From Patescibacteria group bacterium (GTDB lineage Bacteria > Patescibacteriota > Microgenomatia > UBA12405), in assembly GCA_018902845.1 (NCBI GenBank), contig JAHIPV010000022.1, positions 1-58,195 of the forward strand: a stretch of DNA of 58,195 bases, in the 5' to 3' direction. Positions 1 through 56,938 of this stretch are shown here, piece by piece. The notes under the pieces are model-generated. The model ran no database searches. It was given only the letters and a program-made list of their open reading frames with translations, and was not told the DNA's origin. The translations under genes and the position numbers were made by a program. Positions within the stretch are counted from its first letter, which is position 1. Each line of letters starts with the position of its first letter.

Positions 1-17
1 CAGGTAATTGTTCCGGA

Positions 18-1076
18 GTGGGAGGAACTTGTATGCTTGGTGGTTGTCGGTTGGGAACTTATTCTGTGGGTCATGCTGATTGTTCTATAGGTAGTGCTTG
101 TTGTGTTTCTACAGCTTTTTTAACTGCTACACCAACTCCAGAAACAAGATATACTTGCAATCCTGCTACTGGGATATGTAGTCCTACTACGGGTAGTGGG
201 TATAATACTTTGGCTTTGTGTACGAGTAATTGTGTAAGGGCGACTTCAACTCCAAGACCGGGAACAACCGCAACTAAGGTGCCGGTGTCTCCGAATCCAA
301 CCAGTCCGCCTGTGACTCCTGTGCCTCCTATTACCGGTGCTCCACCGCCACCACCACCACCGCCTACAAATCCTCCTCAGCCACCTGGGCCTTCTTGTAA
401 CTATTCTTCTTTACAGGCACAAGTGCAGATAGATAGTACTGTAGATTGGACGAGTCAGTTAGTACTTAAGGCCGGAGACAGTATAAACCTTGGTTGTATG
501 CATGATGGAACTGGGCAGTTGGCAGAGAATGTAAAGATAACTGCGGGATATTCTGATGGAACAAATTATGAATTTGAAACTAATTTAGAAAGTCAATGGA
601 CTGTTCCAAAAGAAGGTAATTATACCGTTTGGTGTCAATCGGTTGATACTGATTGTGCTGGATTGGTTTCTACTACAAATGCGACTTTGAGTGTGGGAGG
701 GATGTGTAAGGAGTGTCCAAATGATTTTGCTTGTTATGGTCACCCTCAATATGGTTATGCTTGGTTTGCAACGGGATATGAGATGGATGGATATAGTGTT
801 TCGGTGGACTTGTATTGTCAGGAAGATGTTGGTGACAGGCCTAATTGGTTAGGCAAGGGAAGGGGAGATGCTGATTGTAATGGAAAGATAGATGGTCGGG
901 ATTATTCTGTATGGCGAAGAGAATATGTGGATATTAGTGAGGGGGAGGCAGTAGTGCGAGATAGTTGGGAGGCTGATTTTGCTGGACCGATGGGGGAGTG
1001 TGACGGTATAGTTGATGGATATGATTATTCTTTATGGAGGCGATCCTATATAGATGTTTTTGGAGGAGATAATTAA
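18..1076 (+). CDS. Secreted Cys-rich/Pro-Thr-rich protein with C-terminal dockerin-like duplicated Ca-binding motif (probably 5'-truncated by window edge)
   Basis: Open from near the window start (GTG start is arbitrary); PPPPPPPTNPPQPPGP linker; C-terminal GDADCNGKIDGRDYSVWRREY ... GECDGIVDGYDYSLWRRSY duplicated dockerin-like repeats. Confidence 0.7.
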   Translation: MGGTCMLGGCRLGTYSVGHADCSIGSACCVSTAFLTATPTPETRYTCNPATGICSPTTGSGYNTLALCTSNCVRATSTPRPGTTATKVPVSPNPTSPPVTPVPPITGAPPPPPPPPTNPPQPPGPSCNYSSLQAQVQIDSTVDWTSQLVLKAGDSINLGCMHDGTGQLAENVKITAGYSDGTNYEFETNLESQWTVPKEGNYTVWCQSVDTDCAGLVSTTNATLSVGGMCKECPNDFACYGHPQYGYAWFATGYEMDGYSVSVDLYCQEDVGDRPNWLGKGRGDADCNGKIDGRDYSVWRREYVDISEGEAVVRDSWEADFAGPMGECDGIVDGYDYSLWRRSYIDVFGGDN

Positions 1077-1077
1077 A

Positions 1078-2499
1078 ATGAAAAAAAATACGAAATCTTT
1101 GTTGTTTATAATTTTGGCGATAGTGGCTTTGATAGGAGCGCTTGCTTTGGTAAGACAGAGCCAAGAAACAAGAAGAAGTGCTTATTTTGCTGGAACTAGT
1201 TTAAGGGTTGGTTCTCCCGGGCAGACTTTTTTAGTTAATAATATCGGGGAAGATGTGTTAGTGCCGGTTTTTATAGAGACTGAACAAGTCGTTGGAACAG
1301 ATGAAATGGCTAAAGTTGATTTTGCTAAAATTACACTATGTTACGGTGATCATTTGAACTTGGTAGAAGATGCTGATGGATATGTGGATTATTTGGTTGA
1401 TTTTAACCATGATGCTTTTGATGTTTTGTTGTTTACAAAGGTAGAAAATAATTGTTTGACTTTTACGGTTAAATCAGAGAAATCAGCCGATAGGCTTAAG
1501 TCAGGAATGTTTAGAGTGGCGACAGTTACTTTTAATACGATTGCCCAGGGAAGCGGAAGTATCAACATTGATAGAGATAAAACACAGGTAAGTGGAAGTA
1601 ATCCGAATCTTGGTAGTAATGATATGGCTTTGAGTTTGGGTGATCTTGTAGGTGTTGATTATAGTGTGGGAGGAGGTGGTGGCCCGACCAACACTCCCGT
1701 GGTTATTAATCCAACTAATACACCAGCTGTTCCTGTTGACGTGTCTCCGACTTTGAGGCCGACTTCAACTTCGAGACCAACTTCAACCCAAAGACCGACT
1801 TCAACCTTAAGGCCGACTTCAACTTCGAGACCAACAGTGCCAACCAGTAAGCCAACAGATAAGCCAGTAGTGCCAACCAGTAAACCAACAGATAAACCAG
1901 TAGTGCCAACCAGTAAGCCAACTGATAAGCCCATTGGTGGTGATACTCCTATATTGAATTTCAGGATTGCCTTTGCTGGAGTGAAGACTAATCATGCTTA
2001 TTGTGTGGTGGCTTGGCCTGTTGGGGTAATTGTTATGAAAGGTGAAACAAAGAAATCGTATGCTGATGTAATTGTTGAGAATACCGGAGAGGTTAATTCA
2101 AAGGGAGAGATTATTTTTGTTGGCAGTTTGGAGTTAACGGGTTTTTATGAAACAGAGGGTGTGGCGGCATTTATTAAAGGCCCCAAGCATTTACAAATGA
2201 AATATGCAATGGAGAATCAGGCTGGTTCTTATGGAAAAGCTGGTGGTGAATTGAACTTGACTTATTCCAGTAAGATTTATAATTTTTCAGAATATTCACT
2301 TTTGGCTGGAGATGTTAATCGGGATGGTTGGATAAATGGACTTGATTTTTCACAAGTTAAAGTGGTGGCTGTTAAATATATAGAAGTGGAGGTCGGTGGA
2401 TACATAACAGAAGATTTGGATGGTAGTTGTCAGGTTAATACGGCTGATACGACTTTGTTGGTTAAATCGCTTGACGAGAGACAGGAGGAACTGTATTAA
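1078..2499 (+). CDS. Secreted protein: cohesin-like domain, Thr/Pro-rich repeat linker, second beta domain, C-terminal dockerin-like module
   Basis: N-terminal hydrophobic signal MKKNTKSLLFIILAIVALIGALALV; RPTSTS/VPTSKPTDKP repeats; C-terminal AGDVNRDGWINGLDFSQVK ... EDLDGSCQVNTADTTLLVK dockerin-like. Confidence 0.7.
   Translation: MKKNTKSLLFIILAIVALIGALALVRQSQETRRSAYFAGTSLRVGSPGQTFLVNNIGEDVLVPVFIETEQVVGTDEMAKVDFAKITLCYGDHLNLVEDADGYVDYLVDFNHDAFDVLLFTKVENNCLTFTVKSEKSADRLKSGMFRVATVTFNTIAQGSGSINIDRDKTQVSGSNPNLGSNDMALSLGDLVGVDYSVGGGGGPTNTPVVINPTNTPAVPVDVSPTLRPTSTSRPTSTQRPTSTLRPTSTSRPTVPTSKPTDKPVVPTSKPTDKPVVPTSKPTDKPIGGDTPILNFRIAFAGVKTNHAYCVVAWPVGVIVMKGETKKSYADVIVENTGEVNSKGEIIFVGSLELTGFYETEGVAAFIKGPKHLQMKYAMENQAGSYGKAGGELNLTYSSKIYNFSEYSLLAGDVNRDGWINGLDFSQVKVVAVKYIEVEVGGYITEDLDGSCQVNTADTTLLVKSLDERQEELY
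1758..1933 (+). repeat. In-frame tandem repeats encoding Pro/Thr-rich linker (RPTSTx units, then VPTSKPTDKPV units)
   Basis: Near-identical DNA units such as gtgccaaccagtaagccaacagataagccagta, three copies. Confidence 0.85.
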
Positions 2500-2523
2500 T
2501 TAATTAGTGTTAGTATTATTAAT

Positions 2524-3165
2524 ATGAATGGAGAAAATAAAATGCAAAAAAAACAAGAATGGTTAAAATTTGTAATACCGGTTGTGGCGGTGTTAATAAT
2601 TGCAGAGAGTGTGTTAGTTGTTTCTGGTTTGGATAAGAAAAAAACAGTGGCGAATGTTGTGCCTGAAAAGAAGGCGATTGTTAGTGAGGAGAGTGATGCT
2701 TTATTACCCGAAGAAGACGCTTTGTTGCATTTTGTTTTTGAAACGGACAAAGATACTTTGTTAGTGGGTGAGGAAAACAAGGTTGGGGTTAGTTTAGTGA
2801 CTGAAACGGATGTAAGTCTTGATTCTTTGGAGTTGTATGTTGAGTACGATCCAGATGTTTTTGATGTTAGTGATTTAGACTATGGTGATAGTTTGCCCAA
2901 ACCCGCTTTTATGAAAGCAAGTGAAGACAAGGGTTTGGTAGTGGCTAATTTTATGATTAGTGAAGCTAATGGTTTGCCTTTGGCGGATGGTGATGTGATG
3001 AAAGTTTTGGATTTTGTGGTAACGGGTAAGCAGACTGGTGAATATAAGTTTTCGATTAGTACTGGCGGAGTGTCAGAAGGTTCAGTAACCATGTTGGTTG
3101 AAAATGCGTCTCAGGGTTTAGTTCCTTTTTCCAGCGATGAGTTAGTTATTAGGATTACTGAGTAA
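2524..3165 (+). CDS. Membrane-anchored cohesin-like domain protein
   Basis: N-terminal TM (FVIPVVAVLIIAESVLVVSGL) then LELYVEYDPDVFDVSDLDYG...GDVMKVLDFVVTGKQTGEYKFSIS, cohesin-like pattern. Confidence 0.65.
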   Translation: MNGENKMQKKQEWLKFVIPVVAVLIIAESVLVVSGLDKKKTVANVVPEKKAIVSEESDALLPEEDALLHFVFETDKDTLLVGEENKVGVSLVTETDVSLDSLELYVEYDPDVFDVSDLDYGDSLPKPAFMKASEDKGLVVANFMISEANGLPLADGDVMKVLDFVVTGKQTGEYKFSISTGGVSEGSVTMLVENASQGLVPFSSDELVIRITE

Positions 3166-3166
3166 A

Positions 3167-3889
3167 ATGAAAAAAAATTATTTAGCAATTTGTAGATCGT
3201 TGTTGTTTTCGCTGGTTATGTTTTTGGTTGCGGCCAAAGAGGTTAAGGCGGCGTATTTTACTTTGAGTCCGGCCAGTGGGAACTATGATGCTGGGAGTAC
3301 TTTTGATGTTGTGGTTGGAATAAGTTCTGGAGAGGAAAAGGTTTATGCGGCTGATGTATGGATCAATTTTGATTCAAATATTTTAAGCGTTAATGGAGTG
3401 GCGGCGGTTTTAAGTCCTGCTTTTCCTTTTGTTCTGGGTGATCAGAATATTGATAATGATGCGGGGATAGTTAAGATAGCTTTGAATCCAGCTATTAGCA
3501 GTAGTTTGGATGCTCAGCCTGCTAATGGTAGTCTTTTAACTTTAACTTTAACTGCAGTTACTGCTGGTAGTGGGAATTTAAATTTTATTTGTACAGATGG
3601 GTCAATAAATGATGCCAATATTATTGAACCAGAAACGGTTTCAGATATAATTGTGTGTAGTTCTAACCAAGCAGCTTCTTTTGTAGTAGGAACAGGTAGT
3701 TCCAGTGAGGTTAATCCCACTTCTGTTCCCGAAGAGTTGGATACTACCGGGAATGCGGAGAGTGCTTCGACGGCTGATGTGGGTGGGGGCGATGAATTGC
3801 CCCAGACTGGTGTACTAATGCCTGTTTTGTTGTTGACACTCTTTGGTGTATTTGGTTTAGGAGGTGCTGTTTTGTTTTATAGATTATGA
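3167..3889 (+). CDS. Cohesin-like domain protein with LPXTG-type sortase anchor
   Basis: Signal peptide; cohesin-like VWINFDSNILSVNGV...AGIVKIALNP...NGSLLTLTLTAV; C-terminal LPQTG + hydrophobic segment + FYRL. Confidence 0.75.
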   Translation: MKKNYLAICRSLLFSLVMFLVAAKEVKAAYFTLSPASGNYDAGSTFDVVVGISSGEEKVYAADVWINFDSNILSVNGVAAVLSPAFPFVLGDQNIDNDAGIVKIALNPAISSSLDAQPANGSLLTLTLTAVTAGSGNLNFICTDGSINDANIIEPETVSDIIVCSSNQAASFVVGTGSSSEVNPTSVPEELDTTGNAESASTADVGGGDELPQTGVLMPVLLLTLFGVFGLGGAVLFYRL

Positions 3890-4500
3890 ATTTAGGCAGA
3901 AGTAACATAAAAACAGTTGTTGTTTTGGTAATTTTGTTTTTGGTGGGCATATTGGGTGTACTGGGTATGAATACGGTAAGAACTTATATGAGCGGAGCTT
4001 CGGCAGGGAATGAGCCAAATGGGGTAGTAGCAACACCAAGTAGTAGAAGTGCTACTATTTCTTGGAGTTCTGACAAAGAAACTATGGGTGTGGTTGAATA
4101 CGGTACTACGCCAGCCAGTTTGCTCTTAAGAGCACCAGAAACTGGTTCTTCTACTCGTCATAGTGTAAGTATTGAGCCATTAAAGGCCAATGTTAGTTAT
4201 TATTTTCGAATAAGAATTGGGGAGGACGTTTTTGACAATAATGGAATACCTTGGTCTTTTAAAACAAAAAGTGAAAACGAAGAACTTGAAAAAACCGGTG
4301 TGACTTTAGTGCCGACTTCTAATATGATGATGGAAGTTACTCCAAAAAGTTCGCCTTCCGTGGTTAATTGTGATACTAATGGGGATGGAATGGTGACTAG
4401 TGTGGAAAAATTGAAATGTGGACAGACTAAAAATAATTGTGATACTAACGGAGACGGGGTAGTAACCAGTGTGGAAAAATTGAAATGTGGACAGAATTAA
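3886..4500 (+). CDS. Membrane-anchored FN3/purple acid phosphatase N-like domain protein with two C-terminal EF-hand-like repeats
   Basis: TM near N-terminus; PNGVVATPSSRSATISWSSDKETMGVVEYG...YYFRIRI; tandem NCDTNGDGxVTSVEKLKCGQ. Confidence 0.65.
   Translation: MNLGRSNIKTVVVLVILFLVGILGVLGMNTVRTYMSGASAGNEPNGVVATPSSRSATISWSSDKETMGVVEYGTTPASLLLRAPETGSSTRHSVSIEPLKANVSYYFRIRIGEDVFDNNGIPWSFKTKSENEELEKTGVTLVPTSNMMMEVTPKSSPSVVNCDTNGDGMVTSVEKLKCGQTKNNCDTNGDGVVTSVEKLKCGQN
4366..4494 (+). repeat. Two copies of a 60-bp unit (69-bp period) encoding EF-hand-like NCDTNGDG[MV]VTSVEKLKCGQ
   Basis: Direct comparison of aattgtgatactaatggggatgg... with aattgtgatactaacggagacgg... Confidence 0.9.
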
Positions 4501-8337: not shown

Positions 8338-8452
8338 TTTTTAAATTTCCAAATCACAAACCACAATTTTCAAACAATAGCCAATCATACAAACTATAAA
8401 CAAGACAAACTTGAATTTGACAATATGATTGTACAAGTTGTACAATGAGAAT

Positions 8453-8716
8453 ATGAAAGCGATAAGGATAGGTGCCAGTCAGGCTAGAAACGATTTTTTT
8501 AATATGTTGTTGGCTGTAAGAGAGGGACAGGTTTTTGATATAACTTATAAAGATGAAGTGGTAGCCGTGGTAAAAAAAAAGAAAAAGAAACAGTTTGATT
8601 GGGGAAAGTATAAGAAGAATTTAAAGAAATGGGATAAAATTTTAGCTAAATCTGATTGGAGTGATTTAGAGCAAGTTAGAAAGGACTTTAATAAAAAGAG
8701 GTTTCCAGAATGGTAA
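8453..8716 (+). CDS. Phd/YefM-like antitoxin (VapB role)
   Basis: MKAIRIGASQARNDFFNMLLAVREGQVFDITYKDEVVAVV; overlaps downstream PIN gene. Confidence 0.7.
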   Translation: MKAIRIGASQARNDFFNMLLAVREGQVFDITYKDEVVAVVKKKKKKQFDWGKYKKNLKKWDKILAKSDWSDLEQVRKDFNKKRFPEW

Positions 8717-9093
8717 AAGTTGTTTTAGATACGTCAGTTTTGATCGAAGAGATAAGAAAAGGAAGTGTGTTTTTGGCAAGATTGGCAACATTGGCTGAAA
8801 ATGAAAAGATATTTTTATATGTTCCGGTAATTGTGATTAGTGAACTGTGGGCAGGCGAGTCGATGAACAGTGTGATTAATAAAAGAACTGTTATACAAAA
8901 AATAAAACCTTTTAAAAGGATTGAAATTGATGAAAAGATTGCTAAAAAAACTGGTGAGTTAATTCGATGTGGACAATGCAAAGGTTTTGACGCTTTGATT
9001 GCGGCGTGTTGTATTGAGAATAAGGCAAAATTAGCTACTTTAAATATTAAGGATTTTGAGAAAGTTAAAGAGCTTAAAATATGGAAGAGTTAG
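8710..9093 (+). CDS. PIN-domain toxin (VapC-like)
   Basis: VVLDTSVLIEEIRKG ... ISELWAGE ... GFDALIAACC ... LATLNIKDF. Confidence 0.85.
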   Translation: MVKVVLDTSVLIEEIRKGSVFLARLATLAENEKIFLYVPVIVISELWAGESMNSVINKRTVIQKIKPFKRIEIDEKIAKKTGELIRCGQCKGFDALIAACCIENKAKLATLNIKDFEKVKELKIWKS

Positions 9094-43372: not shown

Positions 43373-44506
43373 TTAGACGGTGGTGAGGGCGTAGTAGGCG
43401 CCTTTGGTGGAGCCTTGTTTTTGGACAGCGCCGGCTGATATTAGTTTTTTGAGATCTCTCCAAATAGTGTCGTCTGATACCATGGGTAAGATTTCTTTTG
43501 CTTCGGGCATTCTGATGCCACCAAATTGTTGCATATATTCAACTAGTTTAATTTGTCTTTCAGTTAGAGGGATTTGTTTACCGCCTAATTTTTGTTTTAA
43601 TTTAATATCACGGCTAAGGGATTTGACCTTTTCTTTAATTCGGTTAAATTCAATTGCCAGAGCTTGAGTGTAATATTCAATCCATAAAGTTAGATCTCTT
43701 TTGAAAATGTCAGAGGCTTTGAGGTGGGTTTTTTGAATATTATTGTAATAATCTTCAGCATTGCGATCGAAGTATTCTTCCAGTGAGAATAAGCGTCTTA
43801 TGTCGTAGTTATTAACATAAAGAGGTAGGATGGCAAAAGCTCGGGAAATACGGCCATTGCCTTCTATAAACGGATGAATGGCTACTAGGATATATTGGGT
43901 AATGGCTGATTTTATGGTGGGGTGGATTTCGTTGCTTAGTGATGAATTAAGCCAGCTAACGAAATCGGTTATTAAGTATGGAACTTCAATGGCTGGTGGA
44001 GGCCGGTGGGCGATTTCTCCTGTTTGTGTATTTTTTAGAACCACTTGTTGATGTCTATATTTTCCACATTGATCAGCAGGAATAACTTTTTCTGTAGTTA
44101 AGGTGTGTATTTTTTTGATAATAGTTTCACTATAGAAAAAAGGTCGATTTTCTTTGTCGTCTGCTTTTGAAATAATTTTTTCTTCCGGAAGAGGCATGTT
44201 GGCATCATAGAGTGACCACAGTTCTTCCAGATATTCGATGACATTTCTGTAATTAATAACTTCCTGGATATCTCGTTGACCGGCTGTGATTTTTTGCCCC
44301 TCAACCAGTCTGGCAACTTCTTGAAAAGAGAGATCGTTTCCTTCTATTCTGGTTCCGTAATGAACGGTTCTTATAATGGCGTCTTGTTTGAATTGTTTTT
44401 CATAGGCCGGAATTAAAGGGGCCTCGTCTATAAGGGCTTTGGCGGATTCCAGGTTTCCGATGTTTTTTAAAACTTGATTGGTGATGGTAAAGACGGGAGT
44501 AAACAT
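43373..44506 (-). CDS. Fic family protein with C-terminal winged helix-like region
   Basis: HPFIEGNGRISRAFAILPLYV; N-terminal EGNDLSFQEVARLVEG. Confidence 0.93.
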   Translation of the reverse strand: MFTPVFTITNQVLKNIGNLESAKALIDEAPLIPAYEKQFKQDAIIRTVHYGTRIEGNDLSFQEVARLVEGQKITAGQRDIQEVINYRNVIEYLEELWSLYDANMPLPEEKIISKADDKENRPFFYSETIIKKIHTLTTEKVIPADQCGKYRHQQVVLKNTQTGEIAHRPPPAIEVPYLITDFVSWLNSSLSNEIHPTIKSAITQYILVAIHPFIEGNGRISRAFAILPLYVNNYDIRRLFSLEEYFDRNAEDYYNNIQKTHLKASDIFKRDLTLWIEYYTQALAIEFNRIKEKVKSLSRDIKLKQKLGGKQIPLTERQIKLVEYMQQFGGIRMPEAKEILPMVSDDTIWRDLKKLISAGAVQKQGSTKGAYYALTTV

Positions 44507-45488: not shown

Positions 45489-47234
45489 ATGATAAAAAAT
45501 TCTGCCCCAGGGGTATTTGAAAAATTGAGTGATGTTTTGTTGGATAAAGGCTTGATAGATGAACAAACAGCCGAGCAGATTGCTTTAAAAAGACTAAAGA
45601 CCGGTCAAGACGAGGAGGAGATTATTAGAACAATGAGATTGGTTTCTGACAGAGAATTGATTGAAGCTAAGGCAGTATATTTGAGAATTCCCTTTGTTGA
45701 TTTGGAAGATATTGGTTTTTCTCCGGAAGCTTTGTCTTTTGTTCCAAGGAGTGTTGCGGAGAAATATAGAATAGTTCCTTATGGTTTTGATAGTAAGGAT
45801 TTGGTTTTGATGGTGGCTATGGTAAATCCTTTGGATTTAGAGACTATTGAATTTATTGAGAAGAAATCTGGTTTGAAAGTGAAAGCTGCTATGGGTTTGA
45901 AAAAACAAATAGACTTTTTTATTCGAGAAAAATACGAGAGAGAGAGAGGAATTACGTCTGAGGTGAGCAAGGCTTTAAGCGAGAGAAAGAAAGACGAAAA
46001 AATAGTGGTTAAGAGTAAATCTGAAAAAGTTTCCGCTGAGGCTCCGGTGGCTAGAATTGTTAAAACAATTTTGGAGTTTGCCATTAAAGCAAGGGCGTCT
46101 GATGTTCATATAGAACCACAAGAATCCAGTGTCAGAGTAAGGTATAGGATTGATGGTATTTTGCAGGAAAAGTATTTGTTGCCTAGAAATGTTCATGACG
46201 CGGTGGTTTCAAGAATTAAGATTTTGTCCGGTTTAAAAATAGACGAAAAGAGAGTTCCCCAGGATGGCAGATTTTTCTTTTCGGTTGATGATAAGGATGT
46301 TGATTTGAGGGTATCTACCTTACCGATTACTTACGGCGAGAAGGTGGTGATGAGGCTTTTACAAAAATCGCAAAAAGTTCCAAGTTTGCCAGATTTGGGT
46401 TTACGAGGAAGAGCTTTGAGAAATTTTATGGATGCAATCGAAAGACCTCATGGGATTATTGTCGTTTGTGGTCCAACTGGTTCTGGAAAAACAACTACTT
46501 TATATTCTGCTCTAAATATTGTTTCCACTTCAAAAGTTAATGTGAGTACTATTGAGGATCCGGTTGAATATCAGATTGATGGAGTTAATCAAGTACAGGT
46601 TAATAATCAGGCCGGCTTGACTTTTGCCACGGCATTGCGTTCTTTTTTACGCCAAGATCCAAATATTATAATGGTTGGAGAAATAAGGGATACCGAAACA
46701 GCTGAATTGGCAATTAATGCGGCTTTAACTGGGCACTTGGTTTTTTCGACTTTGCATACAAATGATGCGTCAGGTGCTCCACCAAGAATGATAGATATGG
46801 AGGTAGAGCCTTTTTTACTTGTGTCTTCTTTGAGTTGTGTGGTGGCCCAGAGAGTTTTAAGGCGAGTTTGTAAAGATTGTTCTGAGTTGGTGCCGGTAGA
46901 TGATATGTTAGAGTCGACTTTAAGAGAGGCTTTGGGGTCAATTTATGATGCTGTAGTTGATAAGTGGAAGAAGGAAGGAAAAGAGATGATGATTCCTCGG
47001 ATTAATGGTTGTGATAAGTGTAACAAAACCGGTTACTTTGGCAGGATAGCTATTTATGAAGTAATGCCGATTACGGAAAAGATCGGTAAGATGATTATAG
47101 AAAAATCACCAGCGTCTGAGATTCAGAAAGAGGCAATGAGGAGCGGGATGTTAACGATGAAGCAGGATGGATATGTAAAGGTTTTGGAGGGGGTTACGAC
47201 GATTGAGGAGGTTCATCGTGTTGCAGAATACTAG
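45489..47234 (+). CDS. pilB: Type IV pilus assembly ATPase PilB
   Basis: GPTGSGKTTTLYSALN, IEDPVEYQIDGVNQVQVNNQAGLTFATALRSFLRQDPNIIMVGEIRD, CKDC...CDKCNKTGYFGR. Confidence 0.96.
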   Translation: MIKNSAPGVFEKLSDVLLDKGLIDEQTAEQIALKRLKTGQDEEEIIRTMRLVSDRELIEAKAVYLRIPFVDLEDIGFSPEALSFVPRSVAEKYRIVPYGFDSKDLVLMVAMVNPLDLETIEFIEKKSGLKVKAAMGLKKQIDFFIREKYERERGITSEVSKALSERKKDEKIVVKSKSEKVSAEAPVARIVKTILEFAIKARASDVHIEPQESSVRVRYRIDGILQEKYLLPRNVHDAVVSRIKILSGLKIDEKRVPQDGRFFFSVDDKDVDLRVSTLPITYGEKVVMRLLQKSQKVPSLPDLGLRGRALRNFMDAIERPHGIIVVCGPTGSGKTTTLYSALNIVSTSKVNVSTIEDPVEYQIDGVNQVQVNNQAGLTFATALRSFLRQDPNIIMVGEIRDTETAELAINAALTGHLVFSTLHTNDASGAPPRMIDMEVEPFLLVSSLSCVVAQRVLRRVCKDCSELVPVDDMLESTLREALGSIYDAVVDKWKKEGKEMMIPRINGCDKCNKTGYFGRIAIYEVMPITEKIGKMIIEKSPASEIQKEAMRSGMLTMKQDGYVKVLEGVTTIEEVHRVAEY

Positions 47235-47259
47235 AATTTTAAAAATTTGAATTAAATTT

Positions 47260-48336
47260 TTGCTTATGCATACAAAAGTAAAAGAACTGTTGACTTTGGC
47301 AATCAATAATAAAGCGTCGGATTTGCACTTATCTTCTGATGTTTTGCCGAAGATAAGGCTTGATGGAAAGTTGGTTGATGTGACTAATTTTTCAGAAGCA
47401 GATATGAAATTTATGCCAGAGATGATTCTTTCTTTGTTGAGTGAGCTACAGAAGAAGAAATTGGAGGAAACCAAAGAACTGGATTTCTCTTTGGACGTAT
47501 CTGAGTCGAGGTTTAGAATCAATGTTTATTTTCAAAAGGGAATGCTGGCGGTGGCTTTAAGAATTATTTCGTCTGAAATTCCATCTTTGGAATCTTTAAA
47601 TTTGCCTGATATTTGTAGGAGTTTTTGTAGTGTTAAACAGGGCTTTATTTTGGTTACTGGTCCTACCGGACAGGGAAAATCAACAACAGTGGCATCAATA
47701 CTTAATGAAATAAACAGTAGTAGCGGTTGTCATATTGTGACAGTCGAAGATCCTATTGAGTTTTTAATAAAACCAATTAAGTCTATAGTGAGTCAAAGAG
47801 AGCTTGGACATGACACTTTGAGTTTTCCGGGGGCGTTACGGGCTTGTTTGAGACAAGATCCCAATGTGGTTTTTGTGGGCGAGATGAGAGATCTTGAAAC
47901 AGTTGGAACAGCTTTGACGGTGGCGGAAACCGGCCATTTGGTTTTTTCAACTTTGCATACGAATTCAGCTTCTCAGGCTATTGACAGAATAATTGATGTT
48001 TTTCCGGAAGGTAGTAAGGCTCAGATAAGATTACAATTGGCATCGGTAATTACAGCTGTTATTTCTCAAAGACTTTTGCCGTCTATAGGGGGAGGTAGAT
48101 TACCGGCGGTAGAAGTAATGATAGCTACCGCGGCTGTTAAAAATGCAGTTAGAGAGGGAAAAACATACATGATTGATAATATTATTCAGACTAGTGCCGA
48201 CGTAGGGATGATTGGTTTGGAGGCTTCTTTGGCCAAATTGGTTAAATCTGGAAAGGTTAGTGAAGAAGAGGCGGTAGCTCGGGCTTTAAGAGTGTCTGAA
48301 TTACAGAGTAGATTGAGGAATAACTCAAAATTGTAA
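47260..48336 (+). CDS. pilT: Type IV pilus twitching ATPase PilT
   Basis: GPTGQGKSTTVASILNEIN, VTVEDPIEFLIKPIKSIVSQRELGHDTLSFPGALRACLRQDPNVVFVGEMRD. Confidence 0.95.
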   Translation: MLMHTKVKELLTLAINNKASDLHLSSDVLPKIRLDGKLVDVTNFSEADMKFMPEMILSLLSELQKKKLEETKELDFSLDVSESRFRINVYFQKGMLAVALRIISSEIPSLESLNLPDICRSFCSVKQGFILVTGPTGQGKSTTVASILNEINSSSGCHIVTVEDPIEFLIKPIKSIVSQRELGHDTLSFPGALRACLRQDPNVVFVGEMRDLETVGTALTVAETGHLVFSTLHTNSASQAIDRIIDVFPEGSKAQIRLQLASVITAVISQRLLPSIGGGRLPAVEVMIATAAVKNAVREGKTYMIDNIIQTSADVGMIGLEASLAKLVKSGKVSEEEAVARALRVSELQSRLRNNSKL

Positions 48337-48337
48337 T

Positions 48338-49549
48338 ATGAAAAGATTTTTTTATAAGGCTAAAGATTGGCATGGCAAGATGATAAAAGGAAACCTAGAG
48401 GCGGTGGATGAAAAGGCGGTTGTAGAAATGATTAAAGATAGCGGGTTGGTTCCTTTGTTGGTAAAGGAAAGCAAAAGGAGTGTTTTTGACGAGTTTTTAA
48501 CTAAGATTTTTGGCAAGGTTGGATTGAAGCAGATAACAAGTTTTACCAGGCAGTTGTCAACCATGATGACGGCAGGTTTACCGTTGACCGATGCATTGTC
48601 TTTGTTAAAGGTACAAATGAGAGGGGAAAAAATGTTTTTTGATGTTTTGGATGATTGTTTGGAGAAGGTGAGGGCTGGACAGTCTTTGGGATTTTCTATG
48701 GAAAAATATAGCAAAATTTTTGGGGAAGCTTATGTAGCTTCGATTAAGGCTGGTGAAAAAGGAGGGGTTTTGGACGAGGTTTTGCTAAAACTTGCCAAAA
48801 GTTTAGAGAATGAATATGAGTTTAGGGGGAAGGTCAAGGGAGCAATGGTTTATCCGGTAATTGTGATAATAGGCATGATAATAGTAGTTTTTATTATGAT
48901 GATTTTTGTTATTCCAAAGCTAATGGATTTATATGCTGATTTTGGTTCGGAGATGCCGTTTATTACCAGGGCTTTGATGTTTGTTTCTTCGGTGATGGTT
49001 AGGCTTTGGTTCTTGTTTCCCTTAATCCCTCTATTGTTTTATATTGTGAATAAATTTGGGAATAAATTTGAGAAATTTAGGTTGAAAAAAGATGGTATGT
49101 TGCTTAAATTGCCTATTTTGGGGGAGTTGATGGCAAAGACTATTATAGCTAATACTTGCAGAACCTTATCAATGCTGTTGACAGCTGGAATATCTTTGAT
49201 CAGCGGATTGAAGATAGTGTCGTCTGTGGCTTCTAATGAGCTTTTTGGTCAAGCTTACAGAAAAATTGCGAATCGAGTGGAAAAGGGTTTTAGTGTGGCA
49301 GATTCTTTTGCAGATCATGAAATATTTCCGATGATTGTCAATCAGATGGTGACTACGGGTGAGGCTACTGGGAAGTTAGACGAAGTTTTGATGAGAATAA
49401 GTGATTATTTTTCTACCGAAGCAGAACAATCGGTTAAGTCTTTGACTTCGGCAATAGAGCCTTTGATAATGATTATGCTGGGAATTGGGGTGGCTTTTTT
49501 GGTGGTAGCGGTGATAATGCCAATTTACGACTTGACATCCCAATTTTAA
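48338..49549 (+). CDS. pilC: Type II secretion/type IV pilus inner membrane protein PilC
   Basis: FTRQLSTMMTAGLPLTDALSLL, IKAGEKGGVLDEVLLKLA, GIGVAFLVVAVIMPIYDLTSQF. Confidence 0.95.
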   Translation: MKRFFYKAKDWHGKMIKGNLEAVDEKAVVEMIKDSGLVPLLVKESKRSVFDEFLTKIFGKVGLKQITSFTRQLSTMMTAGLPLTDALSLLKVQMRGEKMFFDVLDDCLEKVRAGQSLGFSMEKYSKIFGEAYVASIKAGEKGGVLDEVLLKLAKSLENEYEFRGKVKGAMVYPVIVIIGMIIVVFIMMIFVIPKLMDLYADFGSEMPFITRALMFVSSVMVRLWFLFPLIPLLFYIVNKFGNKFEKFRLKKDGMLLKLPILGELMAKTIIANTCRTLSMLLTAGISLISGLKIVSSVASNELFGQAYRKIANRVEKGFSVADSFADHEIFPMIVNQMVTTGEATGKLDEVLMRISDYFSTEAEQSVKSLTSAIEPLIMIMLGIGVAFLVVAVIMPIYDLTSQF

Positions 49550-49570
49550 TGTCGAATAATGAATTAGAAT

Positions 49571-50194
49571 ATGATGAGAAAAGGTTTTACATTAGTAGAG
49601 TTGCTGATTGTTATCGCTCTTATTGGAATTTTATCTGTAGCGGTTTTGGCAACCATCAATCCTATTGAGCAAGCTAACAAGGCTAGGGATGCTAAGTTTC
49701 AAAATGATGCGGCTGAGGTTTTGAATGCTTATGAAAGATATTATGCTTCTTTGAATACGTATCCGTGGGGTACTCCAGAAGATGTTGGAGCGACTACGAT
49801 TGTGAGTACAGATATTTTGTTTGGTGTGGCAGGTGTAGGAGAGACTGGTGTTTTGATAACCACCTCAGAGTTAAAGAGTTCTTTTGCGGCCAAATCTCCT
49901 TTTAACACTACTGCTTCGACAGTGGATTTGATGTATGTTTACAATAATGGTTCTGATTCAAATTATGTGTGTTATGTACCAAAGGCTAAGGCGAATCGAT
50001 CTAGGTATGGAGATTTGCGTTGTTTGTCTGCTACCGGAGAAATGTTGAATCATGATGATGCTGATTGTACGGCGATCGGGGAGACGGATGTGGCTTGGAA
50101 TAGCGGTGTCTTTTTTGACACTGATTTTGCTCACTTTTTATGTGTACCTGAGACGGCAGAGGTTGCCGATGTAGTACCCGGTTCTTCTATCTAA
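49571..50194 (+). CDS. Type IV prepilin (major pilin candidate)
   Basis: KGFTLVELLIVIALIGILSVAVLATINPIEQANKARDAKFQNDAAEVLNAYERYY. Confidence 0.93.
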   Translation: MMRKGFTLVELLIVIALIGILSVAVLATINPIEQANKARDAKFQNDAAEVLNAYERYYASLNTYPWGTPEDVGATTIVSTDILFGVAGVGETGVLITTSELKSSFAAKSPFNTTASTVDLMYVYNNGSDSNYVCYVPKAKANRSRYGDLRCLSATGEMLNHDDADCTAIGETDVAWNSGVFFDTDFAHFLCVPETAEVADVVPGSSI

Positions 50195-50220
50195 AGATTG
50201 ATTTTGGTTTAAACTTATTT

Positions 50221-51123
50221 ATGAATTTGTTATTTTTGTTTTTGGTTTTTTTGCTTGGTTTGTGTGCGGGTTCTTATGTCAATATGCTGGTATTTCGTAC
50301 CGCGAAGCGGTACGAAATACAAATTCCAAATTTAAAATCACAATTTCCAAATAAAAAAAACAAAAATAAAAAAAGAATAAGAAAAGAGGTAGACAAAAGA
50401 TTTAGTTTTTGTGATGGGTGTGGAAGACGATTGAAATGGTATGAAAATATTCCGGTTTTAAGTTGGATTTTGCAAAAAGGCAAAAGTAGGTGTTGTGATA
50501 GTCCCCTACCCTTGAGTTATCCAGTTGTTGAACTAACAACCGGGTTATTGTTTGTAATTAGTTTATTGGTTTTGATTCCGACGGGATCCTTCGACTACGC
50601 TCAGGATGACACTTTAATTTTGATTTTAATGATTAGTTTTGTGGTGGTTACTTTTCTGGTTTTTGGTTTACTGATGGATTTGAAATATATGATTTTGCCA
50701 GATTTTGGTACAGCAATATTAATTGTTTGTGCGTTAATAATGAATCTGTTGACTAATTCCGATGGGATCCTTCTACAGGTTTTCGCCGTCGCTAAAGCTA
50801 TGGCGGACAGGCAGGATGACGTATTGGTTGGTGTTGGTGCTTTTGGGTTTTTACTTTTTTTGCACTTAATTACTAAGGGTAAAGGTATGGGAATGGGAGA
50901 TGTAAAATTTGCTTTTTTTATGGGAACATTTTTGGGTTTTAAGAAAGTTGTGTTGGCTTTTTATATTGCTTTTATATTGGGGGCTGTGGTGGGAGTAGTA
51001 TTGCTTTTGTTGAAAAAAGTAAAAAGAAAAACTCAAATAGCTTTTGGTCCATTTTTAATTGTTGGAGTTTTTTTATCATGGTGGTGGGGAGACTGCTTAA
51101 AATTTTTAATTTTTAATTTCTAA
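50221..51123 (+). CDS. pilD: Prepilin peptidase, interrupted in frame by three repeat-derived insertions
   Basis: AGSYVNMLVFRT, CDGCGRRLKWYENIPVLSWI, YPVVELTTGLLF, MDLKYMILPD, KGMGMGDVKFAFFMGTFLGF. Confidence 0.93.
   Translation: MNLLFLFLVFLLGLCAGSYVNMLVFRTAKRYEIQIPNLKSQFPNKKNKNKKRIRKEVDKRFSFCDGCGRRLKWYENIPVLSWILQKGKSRCCDSPLPLSYPVVELTTGLLFVISLLVLIPTGSFDYAQDDTLILILMISFVVVTFLVFGLLMDLKYMILPDFGTAILIVCALIMNLLTNSDGILLQVFAVAKAMADRQDDVLVGVGAFGFLLFLHLITKGKGMGMGDVKFAFFMGTFLGFKKVVLAFYIAFILGAVVGVVLLLLKKVKRKTQIAFGPFLIVGVFLSWWWGDCLKFLIFNF
50290..50320. repeat. Perfect palindrome, 14-bp arms, inside pilD
   Basis: gtatttcgtaccgc gaa gcggtacgaaatac. Confidence 0.95.
50574..50610. repeat. Interspersed repeat in frame within pilD
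   Basis: gattccgacgggatccttcgactacgctcaggatgac; encodes IPTGSFDYAQDD. Confidence 0.9.
50755..50820. repeat. Second interspersed repeat in frame within pilD
   Basis: aattccgatgggatccttctacaggttttcgccgtcgctaaagctatggcggacaggcaggatgac; encodes NSDGILLQVFAVAKAMADRQDD. Confidence 0.85.
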
Positions 51124-51161
51124 TTTTTAAACAAAAACAAACAACAAGAAAAGAGGTAATA

Positions 51162-51842
51162 TTGGTTATGAACAAAAAGAATAATGGTTTTACCTTGGTT
51201 GAAGTTTTGTTAGTTTCGGTGATATTGATAATTTTGGTAGTGATTATGACTGGTAGTCTTAATCCTAGTGCGATGATTGCCAGAGCACATGATTCTCGGA
51301 GGAAGAAGGATTTGGCTAGAATTAGGATTGCTTTTGAAAATTATTATGCTGATAAGGGTTGTTATCCTGTACAAGCAGAGATTGACGAGTTGATGGATGA
51401 CGAAAATTGTTTTGGTGATGTATTTTCCCCTTGGTTGGGAAAATGGCTTTGTGATCCAAAGGGTCACGTTTATGAAATAGCTGTTAACAATGAAGACGAT
51501 CCTGGTTGCCCGAATTGGTTCAAAATAATGGCAAACTTAGAAAATAGGATAGATGTGGATATTCCAACCGGTTGGTATGAGGGTGGGTCTCGTTACTTTG
51601 GTGATGGTTCCCTAAATAATAATGATGTTAACTATGGAATTTCTAGTACTAATGTTTTGTGGTATGACGAAGTTTCTTTAGGATTAGGAGAGTGTCGGGG
51701 TGATACTTGTTATGTTTTAATTGGTACAGATTGTCAACCGGCCTGGGGGAATCATTGCAGTGGCGATAACTGTTATTATGAACATGGTGGGTCTTGTATT
51801 CCCATGTGTCAAGTTAGTTGTTGTAGGGAGGATTGTGAATGA
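51162..51842 (+). CDS. Prepilin with Cys-rich C-terminal tail
   Basis: NNGFTLVEVLLVSVILIILVVIMTG; ARAHDSRRKKDLARIRIAFENYYADKGCYP; 10 Cys in last ~50 aa. Confidence 0.9.
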   Translation: MVMNKKNNGFTLVEVLLVSVILIILVVIMTGSLNPSAMIARAHDSRRKKDLARIRIAFENYYADKGCYPVQAEIDELMDDENCFGDVFSPWLGKWLCDPKGHVYEIAVNNEDDPGCPNWFKIMANLENRIDVDIPTGWYEGGSRYFGDGSLNNNDVNYGISSTNVLWYDEVSLGLGECRGDTCYVLIGTDCQPAWGNHCSGDNCYYEHGGSCIPMCQVSCCREDCE

Positions 51843-55490: not shown

Positions 55491-56126
55491 ATGAACCAAG
55501 TACAAAATTTAAAAAAACTGGAGGGTTTAAGTTATTTTGACAAAGGTACTTTGTTGCAGTATATCAATCTCTCTGACAATTCACTTTATGCAAATATTAA
55601 CCGGTGGATAAAAAGTGAAAGAATTATTCAGCTTAAAAAAGGTTTATATGTGACTACTGCTTACTTTAATAAGATATCCAATAAGGATACTTATGTTGAG
55701 TTTATTGCTAACCGATTAAAAGTTCCTTCTTACCTTAGTTTAGAATATGTACTTAGCAGGTATGGTATTTTGGCTGAATCTGTTTTTTCTCATACTTGTG
55801 TCACTCTTAAGTCAACTGGAAATTTTTCGAACAAATTTGGAACTTTTGTTTACAAAAACATAAAGAATGATTTGTTTACCGGATATCAGATAATAGAAAA
55901 AGATCAGTTTGAGATTAAACAAGCCACCAAAGCTAAAGCTCTGTTTGATTATATTTATTACAGGGTTTGTAGAGTTAAAGATATCGGTGAGGATCTGTTG
56001 TCGTCGTATAGGTTGAATTTTGGTGAGTTTACCAATAAAGATATAAAAGAGTTTTCGGTTTATTGCCAAAAGGCAAAGATCAAGAAATATGAGGTTCTAC
56101 CTAATTTAATTAAAAAAATCAGATGA
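55491..56126 (+). CDS. AbiEi-like antitoxin/transcriptional regulator
   Basis: N-terminal HTH-like segment; INRWIKSERIIQLKKGLYVT, SYLSLEYVLSRYGILAESV; directly upstream of nucleotidyltransferase with 4-nt overlap. Confidence 0.75.
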   Translation: MNQVQNLKKLEGLSYFDKGTLLQYINLSDNSLYANINRWIKSERIIQLKKGLYVTTAYFNKISNKDTYVEFIANRLKVPSYLSLEYVLSRYGILAESVFSHTCVTLKSTGNFSNKFGTFVYKNIKNDLFTGYQIIEKDQFEIKQATKAKALFDYIYYRVCRVKDIGEDLLSSYRLNFGEFTNKDIKEFSVYCQKAKIKKYEVLPNLIKKIR

Positions 56127-56938
56127 TTATCAAAGAACTGGAAAAAATAGTTCAAGAAGAAAAAGCAAAAGGTTCGCTTGGTTTGTATATACGTAATTTG
56201 CTTAAAGAATATTTGCAAATTTATATTCTTTATTATGTTTATATTTCAAGAGAGTATCAAAAAAACTTAATTTTTACAGGAGGAACGTGTTTGCGTCATT
56301 TTTACAATCTTGGGCGTTTGTCTGAAGATCTTGATTTTGACTATATGGTGAAGTTTGACACAAAGGTGTTGCAGGGAGATATGATTGATTTTTTTGCAAA
56401 AAAATATAGATACAAAGTTATGAGTTCTTTAAAACAGCAAGGAAAACAGATTCTTTTTAAATTTCCTGTTTTATATGACTTAGATCTGGCTACTAAAGAG
56501 GAAAGTAACTTGCTTTATGTAAAAATTGATTTGTCAGAGAATCAGTCAAAACATCATGAAAGTATTGTTAGCTCAAAAAGTAAGTTTGGGTTTAATTTTG
56601 TGGCTGTGCATTATGATCTGGATAATTTAATGGCGGGTAAAATTCATGCCATTTTGACTCGTCAGTTTTTAAAAGGCAGGGATTATTTTGATTTGCTTTT
56701 TTTCTTGAAAAACTCGACTCAACCAAACCTTAAAAGATTATCTGATCTTTTGGGTCAAGAGGTAACAAGGGTGGGGTTGGAAAAAATGCTAGATGATAAA
56801 GTCGAGGAATTAGTTGCCAACCATAAGAATGATTTTCAGTCTGATTTAACTCCACTTATTAGCAATCCCGATATTTTGAATTTATATATCAATAATTACA
56901 AAAACGAATATTTTCGCAATAAAAAAAATGTTTTTTAA
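56123..56938 (+). CDS. AbiEii/AbiGii-like nucleotidyltransferase toxin
   Basis: LIFTGGTCLRHFYNLGRLSEDLDFDYMVKF; LMAGKIHAILTRQFLKGRDYFDLLFFL. Confidence 0.85.
   Translation: MIIKELEKIVQEEKAKGSLGLYIRNLLKEYLQIYILYYVYISREYQKNLIFTGGTCLRHFYNLGRLSEDLDFDYMVKFDTKVLQGDMIDFFAKKYRYKVMSSLKQQGKQILFKFPVLYDLDLATKEESNLLYVKIDLSENQSKHHESIVSSKSKFGFNFVAVHYDLDNLMAGKIHAILTRQFLKGRDYFDLLFFLKNSTQPNLKRLSDLLGQEVTRVGLEKMLDDKVEELVANHKNDFQSDLTPLISNPDILNLYINNYKNEYFRNKKNVF

Follow-up and report, generated by a model that had tools for sequence, protein, structure and literature searches.

Positions 3 to 4500 of contig JAHIPV010000022.1, from a Patescibacteria group bacterium of the class Microgenomatia (assembly GCA_018902845.1), contain five genes, here named A to E, which probably form the core locus of a minimal two-tier cohesin-dockerin surface-display system. 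The window analysed is the entire contig (C24; 58,195 bases), one of 24 in a genome of 1.06 Mb. The display reading is based on the cohesin and dockerin assignments at the locus, the dispersal of A-type dockerins among secreted proteins of the genome, the presence of two sortases, conserved synteny, and the co-occurrence of cohesins and dockerins across the class. A single-chain structure model of genes B and C (predicted template modelling score (pTM) 0.71) and the likeness of the gene B and gene D cohesins add to it.

An original prediction, made from the DNA letters, had described cohesins, dockerins, a polypeptide bearing both, and transmembrane as well as sortase anchors in one operon of a probable small-genome organism. 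This observation is confirmed for this member of the Patescibacteria. As the cohesins of C and D and the dockerin of B lie above their Pfam cut-offs, it rests on curated models and not on the eye alone. The interpretation placed on it is partly supported, as detailed below.

Layout of the locus

The five open reading frames (ORFs) share one strand and encode secreted or membrane-anchored proteins. They are tightly packed, with intergenic distances from A to E of 1, 24, 1 and -4 nt, in agreement with the minimal spacing that had been predicted. Promoter and terminator scans of the locus gave matches no better than chance. The genes and their domains are:

3 to 1076, plus strand: gene A (ORF1), truncated at the contig edge; the last 357 aa of a membrane-anchored protein of 572 aa that is rich in Cys, has Pro/Thr linkers and carries an A-type dockerin tail
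852 to 1061, plus strand: A-type dockerin of gene A, two F-hand-like loops with an insertion in the second
1078 to 2499, plus strand: gene B (ORF2), putative membrane-anchored adaptor scaffoldin with cohesin, Pro/Thr linker, X domain and dockerin
1180 to 1668, plus strand: putative gene B cohesin domain, assigned by profile-profile alignment, Pfam matches of its family and the predicted fold of a homologue
1972 to 2290, plus strand: gene B X domain, a conserved beta-rich module immediately N-terminal to the dockerin, with the motif G-P-K-H-L-Q-M-K-Y
2299 to 2475, plus strand: B-type dockerin, Pfam Dockerin_1 above cut-off
2524 to 3165, plus strand: gene C (ORF3), a single, transmembrane-anchored cohesin (cohesin match 2764-3081)
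3167 to 3889, plus strand: gene D (ORF4), a secreted cohesin with a C-terminal sorting signal (cohesin match 3287-3616)
3797 to 3811, plus strand: LPQTG sortase motif in gene D, with a transmembrane segment after it
3886 to 4500, plus strand: gene E (ORF5), a transmembrane-anchored FN3-like domain with a Cys-flanked EF-hand/dockerin-like loop pair at 4366-4497

A run of rpsU-, yqeY-, ybeY-, dnaX- and recR-like genes, named by sequence recognition, starts 22 nt past gene E.

Gene B as a putative adaptor scaffoldin

The N-terminal domain of gene B is taken as a cohesin on account of its family. Scanned singly, the domain has no match to Pfam Cohesin (PF00963). The profile of its 13-member family matches that of the gene D cohesins at an hhalign probability of 95.6% (E 1.3e-8), and three of the 13 homologues match Pfam Cohesin (best E 2.6e-10). 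The best PDB matches to the predicted fold of one homologue are cohesins, with 2xdh from Archaeoglobus fulgidus first, followed by several from Clostridium and Ruminococcus.

The C-terminal dockerin of gene B matches Pfam Dockerin_1 (PF00404) at 24.0 bits against a cut-off of 22.9, as do all seven members of its family, and its top PDB match is chain B of 1ohz (E 1.5e-5). Calcium loops, with Asp or Asn at positions 1, 3, 5 and 12, are canonical in the first loop of gene B and in the dockerins encoded on contigs C23 and C15, which are described below; insertions are found in the second loop of gene A and, in many relatives, in the first loop of gene B. The predicted order of cohesin-like domain, Pro/Thr linker and C-terminal dockerin is borne out by the hhalign comparison, the homologue's fold and Dockerin_1. 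The prediction had also regarded B as part of a "chainable" scaffold, which was not shown. Because it carries one cohesin and a dockerin of a type unlike that of the cargo proteins, gene B reads as an adaptor and not as a self-polymer.

Anchored cohesins and the FN3-like protein

Genes C and D match Pfam Cohesin at 26.0 and 36.5 bits, respectively (cut-off 24.1), and are the only two Pfam-detectable cohesins in the genome. The top PDB profile match of gene C is the cellulosome-anchoring protein 3ul4_A (E 0.008), and the gene C portion of an AlphaFold2 model matches PDB cohesins, which upholds its description as a cohesin. The B and D cohesin profiles gave only weak matches to PDB sequences, cohesins among them; the sole PDB sequence match of gene D, also weak, is 2vo8.

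Gene D has the features of a sortase substrate, namely a signal peptide, an LPXTG-type motif and a C-terminal hydrophobic segment, and two sortases are encoded elsewhere in the genome (C9:36364 and C20:133181). The predicted combination of cohesin and LPQTG motif is therefore retained. In three loci of class relatives (L094, L095 and L097), gene D-like proteins carry LPEGG, LPPAG and LPKSG before the membrane segment, which may mean that the class tolerates a looser sorting motif.

Gene E contains an FN3-like domain (PF16656, 31.6 bits; cut-off 30), while its EF-hand/dockerin-like repeats are below the Pfam cut-off; it corresponds to the transmembrane-anchored protein with two EF-hand-like repeats that had been proposed. 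The two Cys-flanked loops at 4366-4497 are nearly identical, and a membrane-bound dockerin-like pair would be unusual.

Gene A and its upstream neighbourhood

The tail of gene A matches a dockerin profile with an E-value of 1e-32, the profile being built from four tails of this genome, gene A's own included. The same module also ends three further secreted proteins encoded in this genome, and both results agree with the dockerin-like pair expected at this end. The tail has no Pfam dockerin match; together with the front of gene B, it is the part for which the Pfam assignments failed, whereas Cohesin in C and D and Dockerin_1 in B were found. In many A-type dockerins, for example the one at 852-1061, position 4 is a Cys in one calcium loop or in both, which might reflect a disulfide or a variant metal site. 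Scans of the window part of gene A with Pfam and NCBIfam detected no domain, and the assignment of gene A as an enzyme was rejected on this ground.

Gene A had been noted as cut by the contig edge, with enzymes possibly lying upstream. The remainder was located, with a relative's gene A as query, on the minus strand of contig C14 (C14:1-729; 243 aa, of which 28 are shared via the overlap). C14 and C24 are joined by an exact 86-base overlap across which the reading frame stays open. The missing stretch comprises 215 residues, and the joined protein of 572 aa has a hydrophobic N-terminal anchor segment, Cys-rich and Pro/Thr-rich repeats and then the dockerin. The 86-base overlap might be an assembly k-mer from a repeat; relatives nonetheless show the same gene layout. 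Enzymes immediately upstream are rejected: beyond gene A, C14 encodes a sugar transferase (PF02397) and an O-antigen ligase/polymerase (PF04932), and no degradative enzyme was found in the 9-kb stretch. Three relatives have homologues of one or both genes in the corresponding position before gene A.

This neighbourhood bears on the idea that the locus is an adhesion or host-contact scaffold, in which A, B and E would form a protein coat sticking to a host or substrate and catalysis would be incidental. Gene A, the operon's only protein with an A-type dockerin, has no recognisable enzyme domain and is marked by Cys-rich and Pro/Thr repeats, and surface-polysaccharide genes adjoin the locus in this genome and in three relatives. 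A dockerin-domain protein is also among the essential proteins of Southlakia epibionticum, whose authors speculate on host glycans (PMC10633639). However, dockerins in the genome and in the class occur on enzyme-like proteins, and the window shows nothing that links the locus to a host. A role in host contact is possible, and a scaffold that is primarily adhesive is considered unlikely.

Dockerin-bearing proteins elsewhere in the genome

A-type dockerins are present on at least three further secreted proteins, encoded on contigs C23, C5 and C15, and a further A-type fragment lies at the edge of contig C7. The C23 protein (464 aa) is GH43/GH32-like, with matches at or below the Pfam cut-off and a phmmer E-value of 6e-6 to a solved family-32 glycosidase. 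The C5 protein contains DUF362 (64 bits). The C15 protein (364 aa) has no significant family or PDB match. In view of these proteins, the absence of a catalytic subunit stated in the original prediction is true of the window but probably not of the genome, where a dockerin is found on a GH43/GH32-like protein; in the class, dockerins occur on GH5 cellulases, sulfatases and proteases.

The cargo raises the alternative of a true but very small cellulosome that degrades plant or other polysaccharides. The plan is parallel, with an anchoring scaffoldin, an adaptor scaffoldin, an X-dockerin and dockerins on enzymes; a GH43/GH32-like protein is present here and GH5 cellulases in class relatives, and a published survey interprets Shapirobacterales cohesin and dockerin transcripts in this way (PMC9123182). 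Against this, the dockerin proteins of this genome showed neither a cellulase nor a cellulose-binding module in Pfam, there is one cohesin on scaffoldin B, and the remaining cargo consists of the DUF362 and C15 proteins. A defining feature of a cellulosome is a multi-cohesin scaffoldin with a carbohydrate-binding module (CBM); here there is one cohesin per scaffoldin, and no CBM was detected by Pfam. Such a function is regarded as improbable, and a display system with mixed cargo is preferred.

Conservation and spread

Named genome contigs were scanned with the gene B X-dockerin family, which identified 23 loci. Twenty of them, mostly from Candidatus Shapirobacteria, have B-like genes; all 20 belong to Patescibacteria or to records whose title says only "bacterium". 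The placement of the window's genome among the Shapirobacteria is drawn from these relatives. In 15 other assemblies, the locus is followed by rpsU, yqeY, ybeY, dnaX and recR as far as the contigs extend. Gene A is upstream of gene B in 12 of the 13 relatives with upstream sequence, gene C was detected in 13 of the 15 syntenic relatives, and LPXTG is retained in gene D of 14 of the 15. Because gene order and the rpsU-recR neighbourhood are shared across these 15 assemblies, vertical inheritance of a core locus is the best explanation. The Shapirobacterales belong to the Microgenomates supergroup, according to PMC9123182.

Pfam Cohesin matches occur in 255 of 374 class genomes, about two thirds, compared with 112 of 380 genomes in a sample of the phylum. 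A-type dockerins were found in 130 of the 374 class genomes, 112 of which also have a cohesin (odds ratio 4.4, Fisher p 1.5e-8, shared ancestry not corrected). Among a set of 80 dockerin-bearing proteins from class genomes are GH5 cellulases, sulfatases, a subtilase, an M4 peptidase, beta-lactamase-like proteins, WbsX and CBM96 domains. One class relative (loci L126 and L127; genome G058, contig C6, about 44,000-68,500) encodes about seventeen secreted dockerin proteins and two cohesin genes within about 25 kb. In other families of the class, adjacent C-like and D-like cohesin genes recur without gene B.

Docking models and proposed mechanism

ORF2 and ORF3 are in the same reading frame and only one stop codon separates them, which allowed the X-dockerin of B and gene C to be modelled with AlphaFold2 as one chain. 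The read-through chain, modelled with 22 homologous rows, is a modelling device only and makes no claim about the cell. The model has a pTM of 0.71 and a mean predicted local distance difference test (pLDDT) score of 78, with a disordered linker; a pTM of about 0.4 would be expected for unpacked halves by a hand estimate. This suggests that B is held by C.

The two dockerin types suggest two sockets. In profile comparison, the B and D cohesins resemble each other at 95.6%, versus 15.6% and 44.9% in the two comparisons with C, a likeness that fits two socket types. A tree of the B, C and D cohesins is uninformative as to a sister pair, because it comprises three unrooted groups, and profile similarity was used alone. 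By similarity and elimination, we infer that D, B or both hold the A-type cargo. Binding of the A-type dockerin to the B cohesin was unsupported by AlphaFold2.

In the proposed mechanism, the membrane cohesin of gene C would anchor the adaptor scaffoldin B via its C-terminal X-dockerin. The sortase-linked cohesin of gene D, the single cohesin of B, or both, would serve as sockets for A-type dockerins, which are found on protein A, the Cys-rich surface protein, and on the dispersed secreted proteins (GH43/GH32-like, DUF362 and C15). Gene E may be an additional membrane-anchored component. If the locus and its cargo are expressed together, secreted proteins and enzymes would be retained on the surface of a small-genome Shapirobacteria cell.

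Several points weigh against this mechanism. The A-type dockerin and B cohesin of a relative gave a pTM of 0.54, approximately the value for an undocked pair, with no sign of docking. Docking was judged from pTM only, without an interface error map or a mismatched control pair, and no interaction was measured. The GH43/GH32 match of the C23 protein, at or below the cut-off, leaves catalysis by the cargo uncertain. Eighteen class genomes have A-type dockerins and no Pfam Cohesin match, although at least one of them (G231) has a cohesin by a finer profile, and many others have cohesins but no A-type dockerins.

A related possibility is that the cohesin-like and dockerin-like folds no longer bind each other and act as independent surface or calcium-binding modules. 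Cohesin-like folds are not confined to cellulosomes, the top-ranked PDB structure for the fold of a gene B cohesin is an archaeal cohesin of non-cellulosomal origin, and some calcium loops contain insertions. This is nevertheless very improbable, given that the cohesin and dockerin genes are linked and conserved in one operon, that the cargo dockerins match, and that the B-C model reached the pTM given above. The display system remains the preferred reading.

Significance

Patescibacteria are mostly uncultured and have small genomes, and little is known of how they feed on other cells or attach to them. A conserved display locus whose cargo can be traced by dockerin type provides a readable list of surface-held proteins, and hypotheses on host contact or scavenging become testable with recombinant domains. 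Cohesin domains are usually taught as a trait of plant-degrading Firmicutes; their presence in about two thirds of the sampled class genomes is wider than that. It is possible, if rather doubtful, that sortase- and membrane-anchored cohesin-dockerin display is an ancestral, near-core surface part of the Microgenomates class, a general socket in which lineages would exchange enzymes and adhesins that serve feeding on other cells or attachment to them. If so, cellulosomes would represent a single specialised instance of a principle of bacterial surface assembly that reaches much further.

Other features of the window

A type IV pilus cluster at 45489-51842 is a single run of genes for PilB-, PilT- and PilC-like proteins, a prepilin peptidase and prepilin-like proteins, assigned by sequence recognition. 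A Fic-domain-like protein with the motif H-P-F-x-E-G-N-G-R is encoded at 43373-44506. Two further pairs resemble toxin-antitoxin systems, by sequence recognition only: an AbiE-like two-gene pair at 55491-56938 and a VapBC-like (PIN domain) pair at 8429-9093.

Comparison with known systems

The locus resembles the clostridial cellulosome of Clostridium thermocellum in having a scaffoldin with a cohesin and a C-terminal X-dockerin, separate anchoring cohesins, and enzyme dockerins of another type. The CipA, SdbA and Olp proteins of C. thermocellum are the parallel parts, and PDB matches were obtained to the cellulosomal structures 1ohz, 3ul4 and 4dh2. In contrast to the clostridial system, there is one cohesin per scaffoldin and no S-layer-homology anchor; the core locus is fixed next to rpsU-dnaX in a genome of about 1.06 Mb, and no cellulose-binding module or cellulase was found on its dockerin proteins.

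Gene D is comparable to the ScaE-type scaffoldin of Ruminococcus flavefaciens, an LPXTG cohesin protein that tethers other proteins to the cell wall (PMC12484212). Unlike ScaE, gene D is remote in sequence and adjoins a second, membrane-anchored cohesin. The cellulosome of the solvent-producing Clostridium saccharoperbutylacetonicum differs in serving polysaccharide breakdown, and it is not known to be a membrane-plus-sortase two-anchor locus. This minimal cellulosome was the smallest such system known at the time of its description (PMC7157769). The non-cellulosomal cohesins of Clostridium perfringens and A. fulgidus likewise show the cohesin fold outside cellulosomes (2vo8 for gene D; 2xdh for a gene B homologue), but they occur on enzymes or single proteins and not in an anchored adaptor operon.

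Closest in lineage is a groundwater study from 2022, which detected expression of cohesin and dockerin genes in a genome of the Shapirobacterales, interpreted them as a cellulosome and refers to a paper on Roizmanbacterium (PMC9123182). In its available text, this report from the same supergroup mentions the genes within a few sentences on carbon metabolism and does not describe an operon, anchors, an adaptor or synteny. In another Patescibacteria group, a dockerin protein belongs to the essential set of a cultured epibiont (PMC10633639). The literature searched, which included few subscription papers, contained no paper that describes this operon or its anchors, synteny or distribution in the class, and the accessible parts of papers on camel rumen and biogas microbiomes hold nothing on cohesins in Patescibacteria. 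Cohesin and dockerin genes in Microgenomates had been mentioned earlier; the conserved locus, its anchors and its synteny may be new.

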